Assembly (NCBI GenBank): GCA_032358255.1
Contig: JAULBX010029236.1
Coordinates: 1-23,129, forward strand
Direction: 5' to 3'
DNA from: Heterotrichella gracilis
Lineage: Eukaryota > Sar > Xanthophyceae > Tribonematales > Xanthonemataceae
Length of the DNA stretch: 23,129 bases
The notes below the pieces were generated by a model. The model was not told the origin of the DNA and ran no database searches. It saw only the letters and a list, made by a program, of their open reading frames with translations. Of the stretch, positions 3,248 to 22,875 are shown one piece after another. Both the position numbers and the translations under genes were made by a program. Position 1 is the stretch's first letter. The number at the start of each line of letters is the position of its first letter.

Positions 3248-3526
3248 CTGAACAGGGCAACTCGCTTTATATGAACAGCAACATACATACTTAGGTTAAC
3301 AAATACACTAGGGACACGAATAGGCAAGCCAATGATTGCTTCAACCAGCAACACCATGTACACGTTCATCATCAATTTAATAAGGCCATTGCTGACAGCA
3401 AACCTGTCTCTTTTGATCGGGACATGAGTCCCAACCCCTAAGCATTTAACAAATGTATAGTAATGTTGAGCATGCAACCAAGGAACAACAGCCAGTTTTG
3501 CCAATAGCCTTTGTTGCACTGCCAAT

Positions 3527-3573
3527 CACCGTACAGTGCACCCGTTCAAAGACAGGCTGTGCATTGTACGGTG
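3527..3573. repeat. 14-bp inverted repeat hairpin
   Basis: CACCGTACAGTGCA at 3527-3540 pairs with TGCATTGTACGGTG at 3560-3573 at 13 of 14 positions across a 19-nt loop. It lies just upstream of a LINE-A 3' end. Function unknown. Confidence 0.6.
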
Positions 3574-3587
3574 CAATACACCAATGG

Positions 3588-11699: not shown

Positions 11700-12515
11700 A
11701 TTACCGCAGACTAAGGAAAGGCCGTCTGGATTTATCCATTACCAACACGTAGGGTTAGCAATGAAAGCAGTTTTTGGCATCGTTTTCCAGTGGGGAATGG
11801 ATGTCAGTGTACCTAAGACCAAAATCTTGGTGGTTAGCAAGGTCCCCTAGGTTTTTCCTCCTTTAGTGCTGAATGGGCAGGTGATTGAAGTTGTAGAAAA
11901 CTTTACTTGTCTTGGCAGTGTGTTTACCAGTGATAACACTATGGATGCCGAGTTTTTGCATCAAGAAAGTAGGGCTGATGCGGCTTTTGCGGGGCTCAGG
12001 TGCGTGTTGAGGTATGATTGGCGCATCTCTTTGATGTCATCTTTAATTTTTTGCAATTCCAAAGTATGCACTACTCTTCTGTATGGGGCAGAGAGTTGGA
12101 GAATGACGCAAGTACAGCTGGCTCGCTTTGAGGGTTTTCAGAATCAGTGCCTGAGGGCAATATGTGGGGTTGCGGTTAGCGCACGTAGCGAATGCAGATT
12201 TGATAGGTAGATGTAGGCAATCCTCAGTTGAGGAAACGCTAAGGGTGATTAGGATCAAATGGCTGGGGCGCTCATGGTAAATGGCTGACATTAGATTACC
12301 AAAGTGTATGGCTTTTGGGCAGCTGGTTGGGAAGCGGTCTAGGGGGGCACCCAGGGCCACATGGGGTGCACTCGTTAATAAGGACCTGCAGGCTAGACGC
12401 ATCCAAGAATGGTACAAGCAATGTCAGGACAGGGCTGGGTGGCGCAAGCTTGTGCAAGGCTGATTGCTGATCTGGCTTTGTTGCTTATATGCATGTAACT
12501 CATGAATTAACACCA
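11700..12515 (+). mobile_element. LINE-A copy, RT C-terminus to 3' tail
   Basis: The frame 11866-12210 reads LNGQVIEVVENFTCLGSVFT, DAEF, LLYGAESW and LRAICGV, the post-palm region of a LINE RT. After frame breaks the frame 12281-12463 gives ADIRLPKCMAFGQLVGKRSR and WYKQCQDRAGWRKLVQG with a stop. This copy best shows the LINE-A C-terminus. The 3' UTR and a decayed ATGTAACTCATGA tail follow at 12464-12510. It is 5'-truncated before the YADD box, and an upstream VPKTKILVV segment ends in a stop. Confidence 0.85.
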
Positions 12516-12654
12516 GGTCCTTTCTGTTTTTTTAACCATCGGCTGCCCATCAGTCCGAGACCTAGCTTGCAACACCTATGCACAAATACACCATGACCTC
12601 TCCAGCTGTGCTGTATATGAATATTATTACAATATATATATAGTACAATATATA

Positions 12655-12885
12655 GTGAACAGGGTGGATGCCCGGCTTGAACCCATAACCAATAAGAAAG
12701 GGTGCAGCAAGGCCACCAAGAACCCAGACAGAGGAAGTGGTGATTGCGTGGCCTTCTCTAAGCGTCTGCACCTGCTTAGCATCTGGTCCACAGCGCATCA
12801 TGTTTTTCAAACCTATGAGTGAGTCACAGGCCTTGGTCAGTAAAACAAGAGAAAAGGACATTACAACTTCTGAAGCTTAACAAGT
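12655..12885 (-). mobile_element. LINE-A RT fragment (fingers/palm)
   Basis: The minus strand reads LVLLTKACDSLIGLKNMMRC, KQVQTLREGHAITTSSVWVL and FLIGYGFKPGIHPV. This corresponds to the usual DLTKAFDS ... LLR-H ... GVKQGCVLAP stretch of LINE RTs. It lies tail to tail with the previous copy and is truncated on both sides. Confidence 0.75.
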
Positions 12886-13029
12886 GCAGCAGTTGCTGGT
12901 TATAGGTTTTAACAGCGTCCTGCATTGCCTCCGCCTCCTCCGCTGCCCAACATTCCTGATTGGTGGTAACCCCTTGCAAGTCTTATTGACTACCTGCCAA
13001 TATGCCAAAGTAAGGCTGTAAGGTATAGC

Positions 13030-14400
13030 ATGCTTGTACGGGCAAGTATGCCTGTTTTTGAGTTGTTTTGGGATATACGAGTTGTCACTGCAGAGTGGAA
13101 GCAGGCGGTGCTAATGTGCCTGTTGAGAATATGGACAGGCTACTTTGTGGCAACTACAATTGACCTCCTTGATATTGTAGGAAAAGGCTTTGCCACTATC
13201 CTTTTGAGACAGCTTAGCGGGTAAATAGAGGGGCAGCTACTTGAAGCGCAGCATGAGTTTTGGCCAGTTTTGACACCACTGAAGCCGTTTTTTCCACTAT
13301 ATAGGCTTTTTTTATCGTGCTTGGAAGGAGTCACTAGTTTAGGGTTCGTGGACCTAACCAAGGCGCGTTACTATGTACAATACATAAAGACACAACACGT
13401 CATGGTTGACAGGTGCTGACCCCAAAATGGTTATATCACTGGGAGAATTGTACCTTGATACAATGCGCATGGTTTGTGTGTTGTAGACTTTGCACCATAT
13501 ACAATGCACGTTGTTTTTGCGTTGGGTGGCCTTTAGCTCCTTTCCTTCTTATGTTCTAGACACTTTTGCGTTGCAGGTGCTGGTGAATATGCAGTACATT
13601 GGCATCCCAGTTGCGCTTGCAAGATTGATTGCAGTTATATAGGTTAACCATGGGTTGAATGCAGTTATATAGGTTAGCCATGGGTTAGCCATGGGTTGAG
13701 GCTTTTGGTGGGTGCTCTGATCCTTTTCCAATTCGCACGGTTTCAAGCAAGGGTGTGTGCTCGCACCAAGGCGTTTCACTCTTTTTATAGATAGCGTGGC
13801 GCGGCAAATAATGCCAGTTATTATACAATATGGGGTGGAGGTGCGCTACCGGATAGATGGGCAGTTAATGGTAGCAAAACCATCTGACAAGGACCTAGTG
13901 ATGTTAGTTTGGATGTTTATGTATGCGGATGATATCTGATTGGTGTGCAGTCCTGCAGCAAATGTAGGTCTGGCAATGCAAGCCATCTTTGGTATTTTTG
14001 ATAAGTGGGGGATGATAATAAGTGTTCCAAAAACAAAGATTTCAGTCGTTTTCAAGGCTCCCCAATACACACCCACGGTTGTTCTAGATGGCCAGGTGGT
14101 GGAAATAGTGGACAATTTTACGTGCCTGTGTAGTGTATTTTCGCAGGACAATACAATGGACGCTGAGTTTGCGCACCGGCTAAGTAGGTCGGGCGCGGCG
14201 TTTGCAGGGCTGCGGAGCTGCTTGTGGTATGACAAGCACATCTCTCTGCGGACTAAAATGAACATTTTCAATGCAATAGTCTGTAGTACCCTACTGTATG
14301 GGGCAGAGAGTTGGGTACTTACTCAGGCACAGTTGTCGCGGTCTGAGGTTTTTCAAAACCAATGCCCGAGGGCAAACAATGCCAGAGCTCATGAGTTTTA
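13030..14400 (+). mobile_element. LINE-A copy with most of the RT domain
   Basis: This is the longest LINE-A coding segment. WKQAVLMCLLRIWTGYF and LLDIVGKGFATILLRQL (13100-13221) are the RT fingers. FVDLTKAR lies near 13342-13368, after which about 380 bases are disrupted and contain a tandem duplication. Coding-like sequence resumes with FKQGCVLAP near 13742, LFIDSVARQIMP, and the catalytic MYADDI at 13919-13936, immediately followed by a TGA stop. From 13940 it continues VPKTKISVV, VVLDGQVVEIVDNFTCL and LLYGAESW, ending near 14400 without the WLGH domain. The stop, frameshifts and missing 3' end make it inactive. Confidence 0.85.
13631..13698 (+). repeat. Tandem duplication, unit GCAGTTATATAGGTTARCC
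   Basis: A 34-bp unit ending CATGGGTTGAAT occurs twice in a row, followed by a partial third unit (TTAGCCATGGGTTGAG). It lies inside the LINE-A RT copy and contributes to the loss of its frame. Confidence 0.75.
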
Positions 14401-14501
14401 GGTTCTAAGCTCAAGCTCTATGCCAGAGTGATTAACCATGTTTGACCAAAACTGATTCAGCCCGGCGTATAATTATTTGGTGCATTGGGTGTGTGTATCA
14501 G

Positions 14502-17500
14502 GCACTTTTATGGTGTTCGCCAAGATCTTCGAGATAACTTGCACTTCGTGGATGACCAAGTCTTGCTATTCATATCTGGGCATCATATGGTACTTTACAA
14601 TGTAGAATCAAGGCAGCAGCGTTTTTTTCAAGGAAACCCAGACAGCACGTCAATCACCGCAATCAATGTGGCAGCTAACAAAAGACTTGCTGCAATAGCT
14701 GAGAGGTTTGATGACAAAACAACAATAACAATTGTTGACATCCATACCTTGAAGAGAAAGAAAGTCATTTCTGTTCCAGATGGAGTGGCTAAGGTGAAGC
14801 AGAAAATAATATGGTCGGATTGTGATTGTGGTGCTGTCTTGTTGTTTGCAGGTACCACATATGAATAAATGGTGTGCTCCTGTGCAGGAATGGCTGGCAA
14901 TTTGCTTCAGTATGGACGGGAAGTACATTGTTGCACAATGCGGGCAGCCTGAGTGCACCTTGGTTGTATTTTCCTGGGAAAAAGCCAAGCTGGTGGCTTT
15001 TGTGCGCAATCCAACTCAGACTGTGAGTGGCTGTCACTGTGCAGCAATGACAGGTATATTGCTAATTCTGCATTCATTACAGCCAGATAAGCAGTAACTC
15101 TTGCGCTCTTCACCCCGACCAGCTGCTTTGACCATTTGGCATTGTATCACTAACATATATGACTTCCTAGTATCCATGGCAGCTCATGTTGTCAGCCATG
15201 TTGCCCTTGATGTCCCTGCGCACTATTGTCTAAATCTCTAATCTCCATTTGTGTCAAACGGCATTGGCATGCATTTGTATGTCAGCTTTTGCCACCCGTG
15301 AGTCCTAGCCAGCATAGTGATATTCCTTGGTTATTGCTGGACAAATCTGGTGGTTTGGGACATGACTTTATATGACAACCATGACAGTCCTCGCCAAGCA
15401 CTAGATATATGTATCAAAGTACTAGGCATTTAGTAAATCTGCAAGTACAGCACAGATAAAAGAAGAAGAAAACTGACATTACTTACAGAACACGGTGAAT
15501 GGTGCATATCTTCGACTTCGACCTCTGGACTTACATCTGCACTTTGCCATATTTCATGCTCAAAACCAGGACTCAGTGATGGTGTGCAGAGGAGGTTCCG
15601 CAAAGCACGTTGTACTTAGGGAAAATATGGAGAGCAAATCACTGTGCTGATGATGCTTTGTTTTACCATTTGTGTCAGCCGAGATGAGATGAGGTGTACA
15701 TGCAGTTCATAAAAGCTTGCCGTATTTTACATCCTGCGGGAATTGAGTTCATAGCACGCTGACAGATTGTGCACGTTGCAAACAGGGGAAAAAGAAGCCA
15801 GCTTACTGGTCACAGTTTTTGGAGACGGGCTTAACTTATATAAGCTGCAAGATGCAAAGTTAAGACATGTCCCAGTACCCATCTGTAAAAGAGACACAGC
15901 ATTGTACAGCTGCCATGCATGGCTTGGGGATGACACAAGCATGCGAATGGTATGTTCCAAGGTGGCGACGCACTTCCCACGCAGCCATTCTTGCGTTGCA
16001 TTATCTTTAGCTGTCAGTGCCTGGGTTGCCAGAAATGAAACAGTTGATCACAATTCATGGTATCATACAACTCACAGTTGGGCAAGCAGGCTCCAACCCC
16101 ACATTTGTTCCCCTGCAGCAAACCTGGTCCAAGTGACTGTCTTATGGCTATTGTACCGCTGAACACTGGCAAACTGGCAGCAATAAATCTGTAGAGATGT
16201 AAACTGTATCCTGAATGCATTCAAATCATAAGGTTCCAATGCCGTATCATATCCACCAAATTTACGCACAGCCCTACAAGGCATTGGAGTATTGTGCACA
16301 TGCATGGGATATCAACTTATTTTACAATTTACAGCACAAGGACGTGTCATGCTTCCCCACGGCCTCCAGCAGCTGTATAGTGACATGTCAGATACTGTCC
16401 AAACGTTGCCTAAAAGTACGACACATCTACAGGAAATAAGAAAATACTCCTTCTGACACTGACAGAGGAGGCATACCACTTCTCCAAGCAGACAAGGCTG
16501 ACTACGGATGAAAGTACACAGGGATAAGCGGGCTCACTGTTTACTATCAGGATATACCTGAACTCTGTCAAATGCATGCAGGTTGTTGGAACACAAAATG
16601 GGGAGATTTTGGTTCTTGAAAATTTTGACATCAAGTTCTCTATGAGCATAGAGTCGTCCAGTGGAATTACATGCATTGCTCGTTCGCCAAAGGTGTGCCT
16701 AAGAAATATTGGATATGCATAGACGCAAAGTGACAACCACATTTAGTTCCTTTGGTCCTTCAATCCCTACACCTGAGATTTTCTGTACCAAAACCACCTA
16801 CTGGTTTCAGCTGCATAGAACAGACACTGCATACACAATTCTTTATGCTGGGGTGTAGATACGCTTCCTGGTATAACGTGGTTTACTGCAGGGGTTTATT
16901 GCGTGTACATCTTCGGGTAAAGCATTGATTTTTGAGCGAGGCCTTGAGGAAAAGCTGTATCACAAGGTCTATTCCTACCGTTTGCCATGTCACACCGAAG
17001 CTGGAGGGGCATTTGCTACGTCTGTGGCCATTTCACATCACGGAGATGCAGTTATTTGCGCCACAAATGACAACCGCCTGTGCCACATAGCATGTGCAGC
17101 AAGTCAGGTGCGTATCTGCCTCCACTTGCATAACAGGCTGCACTCCTAAGTAAAAACGCAAGCTTGCAAGCTGTCACAGGTTCCAAAGCTACCTTGTTAC
17201 CGCTTTGCGCTACCCTGGCGAACTTATTCACTTTCGGTGTTGTTCAGGTTGGAGAGCCAAAGATGTCTATTCCCCTACCTGCTTGCCATTCGGCAGAAGT
17301 TGTGGGCATAGCACTCGGAGCTTACCACCCTATTATGGCGTCGTGTGCAAAGGACTGTACTGTTCGGCTATGGAGCCTTCGCGAGAAGTCCCTGCATATA
17401 GTACGTTGATTGCTCTAAAAAGCTGGCCGAGACTCTCATGCACAACGTATGTTAATACCCACCTTGACACATACCAGTGGCATAAGGCTTGCTCTGAGAC

Positions 17501-21019: not shown

Positions 21020-21983
21020 CACTGCCCACTACAGGAATTTACAGGAATTTTGTCATGAGGGAGCCAACCCGGGCTCATTAGACTGTTGGAGGTGGTGTTG
21101 CAAGAATTCACCTCGCATACTAAAACAACTATGAATTAATGAGGCCAAAAGGGCTCCACTTTTGCTAGTAAAGATGCTAAACAAGTTTCTTTGAATATCA
21201 ATATAGAGACTCTGGTGTTGTTCTCTAATGTCCCCGTAAAGAGGACAGTCAAAAAGGAAATGCATTTCATCTTCTACTTGTTGTTGTCCAATGCTGCAAC
21301 AGTACCTGCAGCATCTATCTTGAAATGGAATTGTTGGTCTACGCCACCTACCAAGTTCAACCTCTAACACATGGGCCCCCATCCTAAACCTAGTAATTTC
21401 TACCCTATTTGCCTTGGAAATATTCAGTGTCAAATACTGTGCGATTTCGCCCCACTCGCCACCATGTATACTAACATATGTGTGCATTTTCCTACTTGCA
21501 CCTATGGTATTAGACCTCTGGTATATAACTATTCCTTTTTCAAGTAGTTCCTCGCTGTCTAGCTCCTCCATGGGTGCCACAGGGGTTGCCGAGATTGCAT
21601 TCGCATCCCGGGGTTGGTCGGCTGCCGCACTGTCATGGGGAGCCCCCCCGCCCAAAGGTGAGGCCCCATGAACTTGAGAGTGTGCGTGTTCATATAGATT
21701 TGCCCCCGCCGAGCTGCCGCCGCCTTCCCCGTTCGCTAGTGCACCTGGTCCCCCCTGTGTCCCCGTCATCGTCTACACGGTGTTGGCTGTGACCCAGTTC
21801 TGCAGTTGTGCTGCCCACGTGTGCGTCTCTTGCTGGTGTACTGCCCATTCAAAAGCTGTTACTAGCAGCCTACTGCTACCAGAAATACAGAATTCAAACA
21901 TACGGTTGTGAAATTTCAAAATTTGTTTCTGCCAGTAAAATCGCAAGGGGAGTCTCCAGGGGGAGTTCCCGTACTTCATTAAA
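21020..21983 (-). mobile_element. LINE-B copy, C-terminal part with Cys/His knuckle
   Basis: This is the 3' part of a LINE-B non-LTR retrotransposon. From 21965 the minus strand reads LPLRFYWQKQILKFHNRM and LVTAFEWAVHQQETHTW. A frame from about 21769 to 21053 is then open for 238 residues. It contains ITRFRMGAHVLEVELGRWRR and the knuckle CCRYC ... VEDEMHFLFDCPLYGDIR (Cys-x2-Cys ... His-x4-Cys), as at the C-terminus of many LINE ORF2 proteins, and ends EPGLAPS and a TGA. The tail has two ATTCCTGTAA-type units. The open end suggests a relatively young copy, but its RT is split and broken at 21984-22500 and beyond. Confidence 0.85.
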
Positions 21984-22272
21984 AGGGGCTACGCAAGCGA
22001 TCACGTGGCTGTGGCAAGGGTTGGCCTGATCACCCAGCCCGCACAGTGCAGGCTTCCCGGCCGTGGTAACGCGCGGCTGTCACCCGAGAGGGGTGACTCA
22101 TCTGGGAACGGGTGCTTAGCCGAAATCCCTTGGTGACCAGGTGGGGACCAAAAGTCTGACCTGGGAGCGGTCAGCTTTGGCGCTGAGGGAGTGCACTCCC
22201 AACGCTAAATTCGTGAGGTAAAAACCATATATCGGAAATTAATTACTTCCGATACAGTGATGATAACCCCAC

Positions 22273-22327
22273 TGATCCAGTGGTACGATCGGACACCCTC
22301 GCGGTGGAAGGTCTCAGGTTCGAATCC
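22273..22327 (+). promoter_or_regulatory. tRNA-like Pol III internal promoter (A and B boxes)
   Basis: TGATCCAGTGG (22273-22283) resembles the A box, and GGTTCGAATCC (22317-22327) is a perfect B box, 33 bases apart. The flanking arms do not fold as a tRNA (the T-stem fails after two pairs), so this is a promoter relic rather than a tRNA gene. It sits inside the 517-bp insertion about 55 bases upstream of the hammerhead motif, so a Pol III transcript would include the ribozyme. Confidence 0.6.
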
Positions 22328-22381
22328 CATCAGTAGAATTTCTCAGATGCCTTTCGGGGCACCCAGATATGAAATTTCAAA

Positions 22382-22426
22382 GGCTACTGATGAGGCCCCG
22401 TGGCGGGGGCCGAAACCGGTATAGCC
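22382..22426 (+). ncRNA. Hammerhead ribozyme motif (type I, minimal stem III)
   Basis: All conserved core elements are present in order. Stem I 5' strand GGCTA is at 22382-22386 and core CTGATGA at 22387-22393. Stem II is GGCCCC/GGGGCC (22394-22399 and 22406-22411) with loop GTGGCG. Core GAAA is at 22412-22415, then CCGG, T (the U16.1 position), A at 22421 (cleavage site, H17), and stem I 3' strand TAGCC at 22422-22426. Stem III is only ACCGGT, self-complementary, so two RNAs could form it as a dimer, as known for hammerheads of some retroelements. Possible extra stem I pairing (AAAT upstream with ATTT downstream) is unproven. Cleavage would fall after 22421. CATCAGTAG at 22328-22336 could pair with CTACTGATG at 22384-22392 and mask the core. 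Confidence 0.82.
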
Positions 22427-22506
22427 AGCCATTTTACCGCACACGTCTGATGTACCAAATTTGGTACCTGGCTTTGTGCCCTAACGCAAAAACACACAAA
22501 ATTAAA

Positions 22507-22875
22507 TAACATGAATACTGGGGTTAAATTCCGAACCTGCAACAATTTTCTCAAAAACATTTTTTGGACTTTTTCAAGCACGTCGCAATCTGAACTCATG
22601 TATGATGTGCCCCAAACCTCGCAAACAAATGATATTACCGGTCTCACTTATGTGTCAAATAGCTGGCATTTGAGTTTCACATCGGCAATTCCTAGAGATG
22701 CACACCTGCGCAACATACCAAACATTGCTTTTCTGGCCGCTACCGCTAGGGTGTCCACAGCTGCCTTTCAATTTGCTTTCCTATGAAAGACTACGCCTAA
22801 GTACACACACTGCTCAACCTTCACTAAAGGGGCGCCCATGTAGTAAACTAAAATTGTTCTCTACCCCCACTCTAC
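22507..22875 (-). mobile_element. LINE-B copy, RT C-terminal part
   Basis: The minus strand reads LVYYMGAPLVKVEQCVYLGV (about 22850-22790), VDTLAVAARKAMFGMLRRCA, then after a stop VRPVISFVCEVWGTSYM and FLRKLLQVRNLTPVFMLF. This is the post-palm region of a LINE RT (usual YLGV.F and CEVWG motifs). Two in-frame stops and the insertion at 22500 show it is dead. It continues in the LINE-B C-terminal part at 21983. Confidence 0.85.

Follow-up and report, generated by a model that had tools for sequence, protein, structure and literature searches.

A minimal type I hammerhead motif in a dispersed SINE-type retroposon with a 7SL-like head, most likely from a green alga

Within the window, the whole stretch of 23,129 nucleotides analysed here, an initial annotation recognised a hammerhead ribozyme motif in a short mobile element. 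The locus raises the question of whether this motif is more than a chance arrangement of letters, what kind of element carries it, and whether it is likely to act as a ribozyme. The reading preferred here, to which a probability of about two in three is assigned, is that the carrier is a non-autonomous SINE of a green alga, in which a 7SL-like head is joined to a pol III stretch resembling a tRNA, a minimal type I hammerhead expected to act as a dimer and a 3' tail of LINE type. Direct reading of the sequence, together with a strict descriptor, bears out every hammerhead element in the order and at the positions first annotated (Table 1), with the NUH site GTA followed by the stem I strand TAGCC at 22419-22426.

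Table 1. Coordinates of the retroposon, its hammerhead motif and its other features in the window.
Feature	Position	Strand	Basis or remark
Target-site duplication ATTAAA, 5' copy	21978..21983	+	6 bp, weak alone; site agrees with empty paralogues (ACTTCACTAAATAACATG)
SINE-type retroposon of 517 bp, the longest among the copies found	21984..22500	+	Empty paralogues and about 35 copies
5' stretch, window copy only	21984..22051	+	Next longest copy, C864, begins at 22052
7SL (SRP) RNA Alu-domain-like region, S domain missing	22056..22144	+	Plant_SRP match; alignment to host 7SL
A-box-like TGATCCAGTGG, one departure from consensus	22273..22283	+	Begins 44 nt before B box
Pol III B box GGTTCGAATCC	22317..22327	+	Exact to consensus GGTTCGANNCC
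Hammerhead motif, minimal type I	22382..22426	+	Direct sequence reading; strict descriptor
Hammerhead stem I, 5' strand GGCTA	22382-22386	+	Sequence reading
Hammerhead core CTGATGA	22387-22393	+	Sequence reading
Stem II hairpin, 6 bp	22394..22411	+	GGCCCC 22394-22399, loop GTGGCG 22400-22405, GGGGCC 22406-22411
GAAA of hammerhead	22412-22415	+	Sequence reading
Stem III palindrome ACCGGT, self-complementary, no loop space	22415..22420	+	Sequence reading
Cleavage position A	22421	+	Predicted cut between 22421 and 22422
Hammerhead stem I, 3' strand TAGCC	22422-22426	+	Sequence reading
Palindrome GTACCAAATTTGGTAC in 3' part of element	22452..22467	+	Sequence; also an opposite-strand self-match
Common 3' end GGCTTTGTGCCCTAACGC and A/CA-rich tail	22470..22500	+	3'-end 20-mer search
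Target-site duplication ATTAAA, 3' copy	22501..22506	+	Sequence comparison

The strict descriptor (CTGATGA, a stem II of at least 5 bp, GAAA, a TH site and a stem I of at least 5 bp) matches once across the whole window. Both strands of 70 Mb of order-1 Markov sequence simulated from the window (140 Mb of strand scanned) contain no match, or two if G-U pairs are counted, and a chance motif was ruled out on the strength of this absence of strict matches. In the genome, the pattern CTGATGAN{8,38}GAAACCGGT is present at 12 places, comprising 11 element copies and one unrelated site (C23), with a single match for the reversed-pattern control. The looser pattern CTGATGAGN{6,30}CGAAA returns 28 matches against 18 in its control, and the hammerhead core alone is therefore not rare. 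A match to the covariance models, proposed with the annotation as a check, did not materialise: the Rfam hammerhead models give nothing in the window at E<=5, nor in 22350-22460 at E<=10, and the best result is that of Hammerhead_3 over the core of the C864 copy, which has an enlarged stem II (14.5 bits, E 4.5; gathering score 48.5). We infer that the models, which expect a closed stem III, miss the motif for that reason. Searches for an exact 22-mer in viral and genome contig collections returned 0 and 0 matches.

That the carrier is a short mobile element, as was also annotated, is supported by empty paralogues, by about 35 dispersed copies and by a common 3' end. Three uninterrupted paralogues align with both flanks of the window element and lack the insert (C838, matching 21030-21955 and 22503-22863; C196:77.4k, matching 21039-21955 and 22503-22863; C238:7.3k, matching 21052-21955 and 22503-22847); therefore, 21984-22500 is an insertion. 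The interrupted repeat contains LINE reverse-transcriptase-like ORFs on the opposite strand, recognised by eye. A DNA search with 21900-22500 gave 37 matches, of which 29 are element copies, four cover the flanking repeat only and four the hammerhead half only. A 20-mer from the 3' end, carrying G in place of the window's A, was found at 41 places, 30 of them with no more than two mismatches (reversed control 0). Ten of the 11 three-mismatch places were examined and yielded three further copies, and the eleventh is the already known copy C560; one 20-mer match, on C57, does not align to the element and was dropped as chance. With six further copies in all (C130, C143:16.3k, C199, where the match spans only 20 nt, C15, C200 and C542:14.6k), the total comes to about 35.

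The copies begin at scattered positions between 21984 and 22469 but share a single 3' end followed by A/CA-rich tails, a pattern characteristic of LINE-mediated, target-primed copying. Clear target duplications are present at C238:70.1k (14 nt, GAAAATATTAGAAT) and C542:19.4k (10 nt); the remaining copies have duplications of 5-7 nt or none that can be called, the latter being the case for C864. Where the upstream flanks of truncated copies were compared (24 copies), they are unrelated, except for shared stretches taken as other repeats, and the comparison revealed no LINE partner sharing the 3' end of the element. The end of a candidate partner would be GGCTTTGTGCCCTGACGC...(CA)n, and (CA)n ends are recorded for green-algal RTEX and L1 LINEs in the available text of one survey (PMC3747384). 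Being short, non-coding and dispersed, with a common 3' end, 5' truncations and target duplications, the element is probably a real SINE, and probably one that has been active recently. None of the approximately 35 copies are in tandem; the nearest pair lies about 4.7 kb apart, on C542 and in opposite orientation, and two further pairs are about 10.5 kb apart.

Two observations on the 5' starts concern the ribozyme. The C542:19.4k copy (near L023 about 1501), with the duplication CAATGGGTAT, begins no more than 1-2 nt from the cut predicted for the hammerhead, and its start was taken as 22422 in the breakpoint count. This start is possibly the outcome of copying a cut RNA, with which it is compatible, though it is a single case and may well be chance. 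Separately, four of 29 5' breakpoints fall at 22410-22413, just 3' of stem II, in a count that leaves out the window copy, two contig-edge copies, C81:15.5k and two starts before 22257. The probability of such clustering is 0.002 at that spot and 0.23 for any 4-nt stretch, and on the latter value the clustering was discarded.

The 5' part of the element resembles the Alu domain of 7SL RNA. When Plant_SRP was run over the 68.5-Mb genome, with 27 of 1370 first-look candidates scored, it recognised three sites at E<=0.001. The host 7SL gene on C2 reaches 109.9 bits, whereas C864 scores 40.2 bits (E 2.1e-8; E 6.3e-10 when that 501-nt copy is searched alone) and the window copy 31.3 bits (E 1.2e-5). 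Both SINE scores are below the gathering score of the family (105). These two copies, the longest, are also the only ones to contain the whole Alu-like domain. Metazoa_SRP independently found the host 7SL gene and gave no match to a SINE copy. From the first bases of 7SL RNA onward, the element is 68% identical to the host gene over 65 nt, with an alignment score reached by 2 of 1000 shuffles. When the Alu-domain helices are compared with those of host 7SL, 97.4% of cells are paired, and four pairs have changed on both sides with pairing kept; nine of 500 shuffles reach this level and slid controls stay at or below 59%, in a test comprising three sequences of which two are copies of one element. 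The element has about 29 nt where the Plant_SRP model has 245, and the S domain is therefore gone. Taken together, the sequence comparisons argue that the head is homologous to the 7SL Alu domain, with the S domain deleted.

Downstream of this head, the boxes in Table 1 were matched to A-box and B-box (GGTTCGANNCC) consensus sequences that we take to be those of pol III promoters. No tRNA is called in the element by ARAGORN or Rfam, and its tRNA-likeness consists of the A-box-like sequence and the B box. A different view would make the element the 3' portion of an autonomous LINE that has escaped detection, its copies being 5'-truncated pieces and the 7SL-like part lying in a 3' UTR. The truncation spectrum is LINE-like, a length of 517 bp is reached by one copy only, and the window copy extends 72 nt upstream of the 7SL-like domain, all of which would fit. 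However, a search of the assembly found no element copy longer than 517 bp, the pol III box and the SRP-like head are SINE features, and in the second longest copy, C864, 4 nt precede the SRP-like part. An origin in a LINE 3' region is consequently considered improbable, and the element is treated here as a SINE.

Fourteen element copies span the hammerhead motif, with integrity counted by script in five and by eye in the others. The core, stem I and stem II are intact in nine copies (C671, C864, C196, C241, C143, C186, C40, C44 and C9), including C864 with its longer stem II and different loop, but five are damaged: the core or stem I is altered in C348, C560, C107 and C772, while in C583 stem I contains a single mismatch and stem II is enlarged. 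The window copy is itself among the nine intact ones, and the other eight are 93-99% identical to it, compared with 78-87% for the damaged copies; the high identity of the intact copies suggests recent activity of the element. When stems I and II of 10 copies were aligned, giving 8 distinct rows, pairing held in 93% of cells, against 55% or less in slid controls. The compensatory changes that might have strengthened the annotation were sought in the same 10 copies and are absent, with no two-sided change in either stem among sequences that are very alike. The stems are preserved by the youth of the copies as much as by anything.

A closed stem III is not available within one molecule, as ACCGGT is loopless and could pair only between two molecules. 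In the predicted fold of a single transcript, the core bases pair instead with CCGGT, and this inactive pairing is favoured at -23.8 kcal/mol versus -20.6 kcal/mol for the fold with stems I and II; a requirement for two molecules would be consistent with this prediction. The loopless palindrome and the mis-paired core thus lend support to the requirement for a dimer or tandem RNA that had been deduced from the self-complementary ACCGGT. Prediction for two molecules gave as its minimum another, non-hammerhead duplex and not the hammerhead dimer. In the preferred reading, the minimal type I hammerhead would cut only as an RNA dimer.

A second repeat family complicates this picture. It was found at four places (C346, C148 and C30 twice; loci L061, L062, L063, L064 and L085-L087) and is 2.6-2.9 kb long in the three copies read far enough. 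One end of this repeat, over 30-40 nt, is 90-100% identical to the 5' half of the hammerhead (core, stem II, GAAACC), so that its 3' terminus consists of a stem I strand variant AAAGCTTA, the core, stem II and GAAACC, followed by AA; in C30:51.5k the variant strand is partly missing. This repeat has neither a cleavage site nor a second stem I strand. No reverse-transcriptase ORF was recognised in it among ORFs of at least 180 aa. The ends of the repeat are sharp (5' GTGCAGGGT in C346 and C148 and TTGCGCGGG in C30; 3' GGCCGAAACCAA), and two of the three copies read also have ACCAA in their 5' flank. The half-motif can evidently persist without ribozyme function, and either the second repeat took half a ribozyme or a hairpin of other use was completed by the SINE.

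The latter option can be extended to a rival account of the whole motif, in which it would be a terminal hairpin module shared among algal repeats rather than a working ribozyme, with the core and stem II exchanged between two families and the completing strand incidental or dead. The half-motif family, the lack of stem covariation and the damage in five of 14 copies are what such a module would predict. Yet the SINE has exactly the strand that the other family lacks, comprising the palindromic stem III, the NUH site and a 5-bp stem I. An estimate made by hand puts the share of random flanks that would provide this strand below 1%, and it is preserved in nine copies, though these are also the youngest. 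An idle hairpin module therefore appears unlikely, and the motif is still best read as a hammerhead, with confidence in an active ribozyme kept moderate mainly because of the half-motif repeat.

The host bears on which known systems are relevant. The genome contains 43 matches to light-harvesting proteins, counted exon by exon, one of which reads as CP26; the best chains are 7pi0, 9is4, 6kac and 8bd3, which we take to be from green algae. The 7SL gene and light-harvesting matches occur together on contig C2. The C196 SINE copy adjoins a gene that matches SNF2/ERCC6-like proteins, the highest named matches being from Tetrabaena socialis (73%) and Dunaliella salina (62%), presumably both green algae, each over 18% of the query, and the lower ones from land plants, a brown alga and a clam. 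Tetranucleotide agreement among the window, the SINE loci and the light-harvesting and 7SL loci is 0.89-0.94, compared with 0.38-0.44 for bacterial loci. The GC content of the window (0.46) and SINE loci (0.43-0.56) is lower than that of the light-harvesting and 7SL loci (0.54-0.59), and no repeats common to the latter and the window or SINE loci were found in the 15 kb compared, so that the link between SINE and alga rests on tetranucleotide make-up and the ERCC6-like gene. On this sequence evidence, the host of the SINE is most likely a green alga and not an animal.

The assembly is mixed. A search for GIY-YIG sequences, such as accompany Penelope-like reverse transcriptases, gave nine places; at the five that were read (C1, C111, C151, C826 and C871), no reverse-transcriptase ORF was recognised by eye among ORFs of at least 230 aa. 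C1, C111 and C151 are bacterial-looking, with UvrC-like or exonuclease ORFs among bacterial ORFs (by eye), while C826 and C871 (GC 24-28%) carry GIY-YIG endonuclease ORFs that resemble phage, bacterial or organellar homing endonucleases. The animal frame in which the motif was originally placed, that of Penelope-like elements, Sm-alpha and animal retrozymes, is accordingly unsupported, and an animal setting is very likely wrong. An animal-type retrozyme or Penelope-like derivative would have tandem hammerheads that excise a monomer, which is circularised and spreads by circular RNA, and minimal type I hammerheads with a tiny stem III are indeed described from such elements in the available portions of two accounts (PMC7229834, PMC7761336). 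Nevertheless, the copies here are single, 5'-truncated and tailed, the host reads as a green alga, and the GIY-YIG places that were read offer no partner. A tandem retrozyme was rejected on the absence of tandem copies, and an origin of this broader type is regarded as very improbable.

Several described systems share parts with the algal SINE, as far as the accessible text of the sources goes. The minimal type I hammerheads of Penelope-like elements and of Terminons, as portrayed in papers that cite Cervera & de la Pena 2014 and Lunse et al. 2017, have the common core, an open stem I, a reduced stem III and an expected dimer action, whereas the element here forms single, 5'-truncated, SINE-type insertions in a green alga, with no pseudo-LTR or GIY-YIG/RT partner seen. 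SMalpha of Schistosoma mansoni, likened here by description, is likewise a SINE-like retroposon with a type I hammerhead, but belongs to another host kingdom; a 7SL-like head and the lack of tandem copies set the present element apart (PMC8490949). Animal non-LTR retrozymes are also short, non-autonomous and non-LTR, with type I hammerheads and target duplications; however, they form tandem arrays of 150-450-bp repeats and have circular RNAs, whereas the element here is a monomer of 517 bp whose copies are truncated and share one 3' end (PMC7229834). The 7SL-derived SINE1 group (Alu, B1 and hagfish SINE1-1_EBu) similarly keeps the Alu domain, deletes the S domain and joins the remainder to another SINE body, but the present case is from a green alga, has a ribozyme in the body and resembles host 7SL (68% identity) across no more than 65 nt (PMC7245038). 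Finally, SINEX-1 to -6_CR of Chlamydomonas, compared by description only, are green-algal SINEs that use LINE tails; their heads are given as tRNA or unknown, none being 7SL, and the available text makes no mention of a hammerhead (PMC3747384).

Genomic hammerheads of this kind are best known from animals, according to the accessible parts of four papers (PMC7229834, PMC7761336, PMC8490949, PMC6155905), and 7SL-headed SINEs are described, in similarly partial texts, as limited to primates, rodents and hagfish (PMC10886601) or to Euarchontoglires and hagfish (PMC7245038). Among the matches listed in a literature search that took in little of the subscription literature, no paper reports a 7SL SINE or a SINE hammerhead in algae, and within that scope the element is made of known parts in a new combination and host. 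If the reading is correct, a 7SL-headed SINE would have arisen independently once more, this time in a green alga, and paired changes would have preserved its Alu-domain fold, a case that bears on why this fold aids the spread of SINEs. A hammerhead inside such an element would likewise make the role of genomic hammerheads testable in algae, including whether a dimer-only ribozyme helps or hinders its carrier.

Under the preferred reading, the element would be transcribed by RNA polymerase III and copied from its 3' end by a LINE reverse transcriptase, with frequent early stops giving the 5' truncations. In a single transcript, the palindromic stem III without a loop and the mis-paired core are predicted to leave the hammerhead inactive or weak. 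Two transcripts could pair via ACCGGU, after which each would be cut after 22421. The predicted cut lies 79 nt upstream of the 3' end and would leave the head without the tail on which the LINE enzyme depends; the ribozyme would thus be a concentration-dependent brake or a processing step. Of this account, the motif, its copies, the pattern of truncation and the 7SL-like domain are observed, whereas the use of pol III, the LINE partner, the cleavage and the effect of cleavage are deduced. A more specific and rather doubtful version of this idea is that an independently born green-algal 7SL SINE uses its dimer-only hammerhead as a copy-number sensor, in which case low RNA concentrations would leave whole, copyable transcripts and high concentrations would lead to ACCGGU pairing, mutual cutting and loss of the tail.

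Other features of the window are of a different nature. LINE-ORF-like fragments lie at 11851-14401, where the ORF 13940-14398 resembles DUF6451 at E 8.3e-5, below the cutoff, and a protein search with the ORF 14473-14865 gave no match. A perfect 73-nt inverted repeat occupies the contig ends (1-73 and 23054-23126) and is also present near the ends of contigs L019 and L020 and inside L023, L028 and L038; it is a dispersed repeat at assembly breaks. At 3514-3587 there is a strong near-palindrome, CCGTACAGTGCACC ... GTGCATTGTACGG, with weak miRNA-model matches below threshold.
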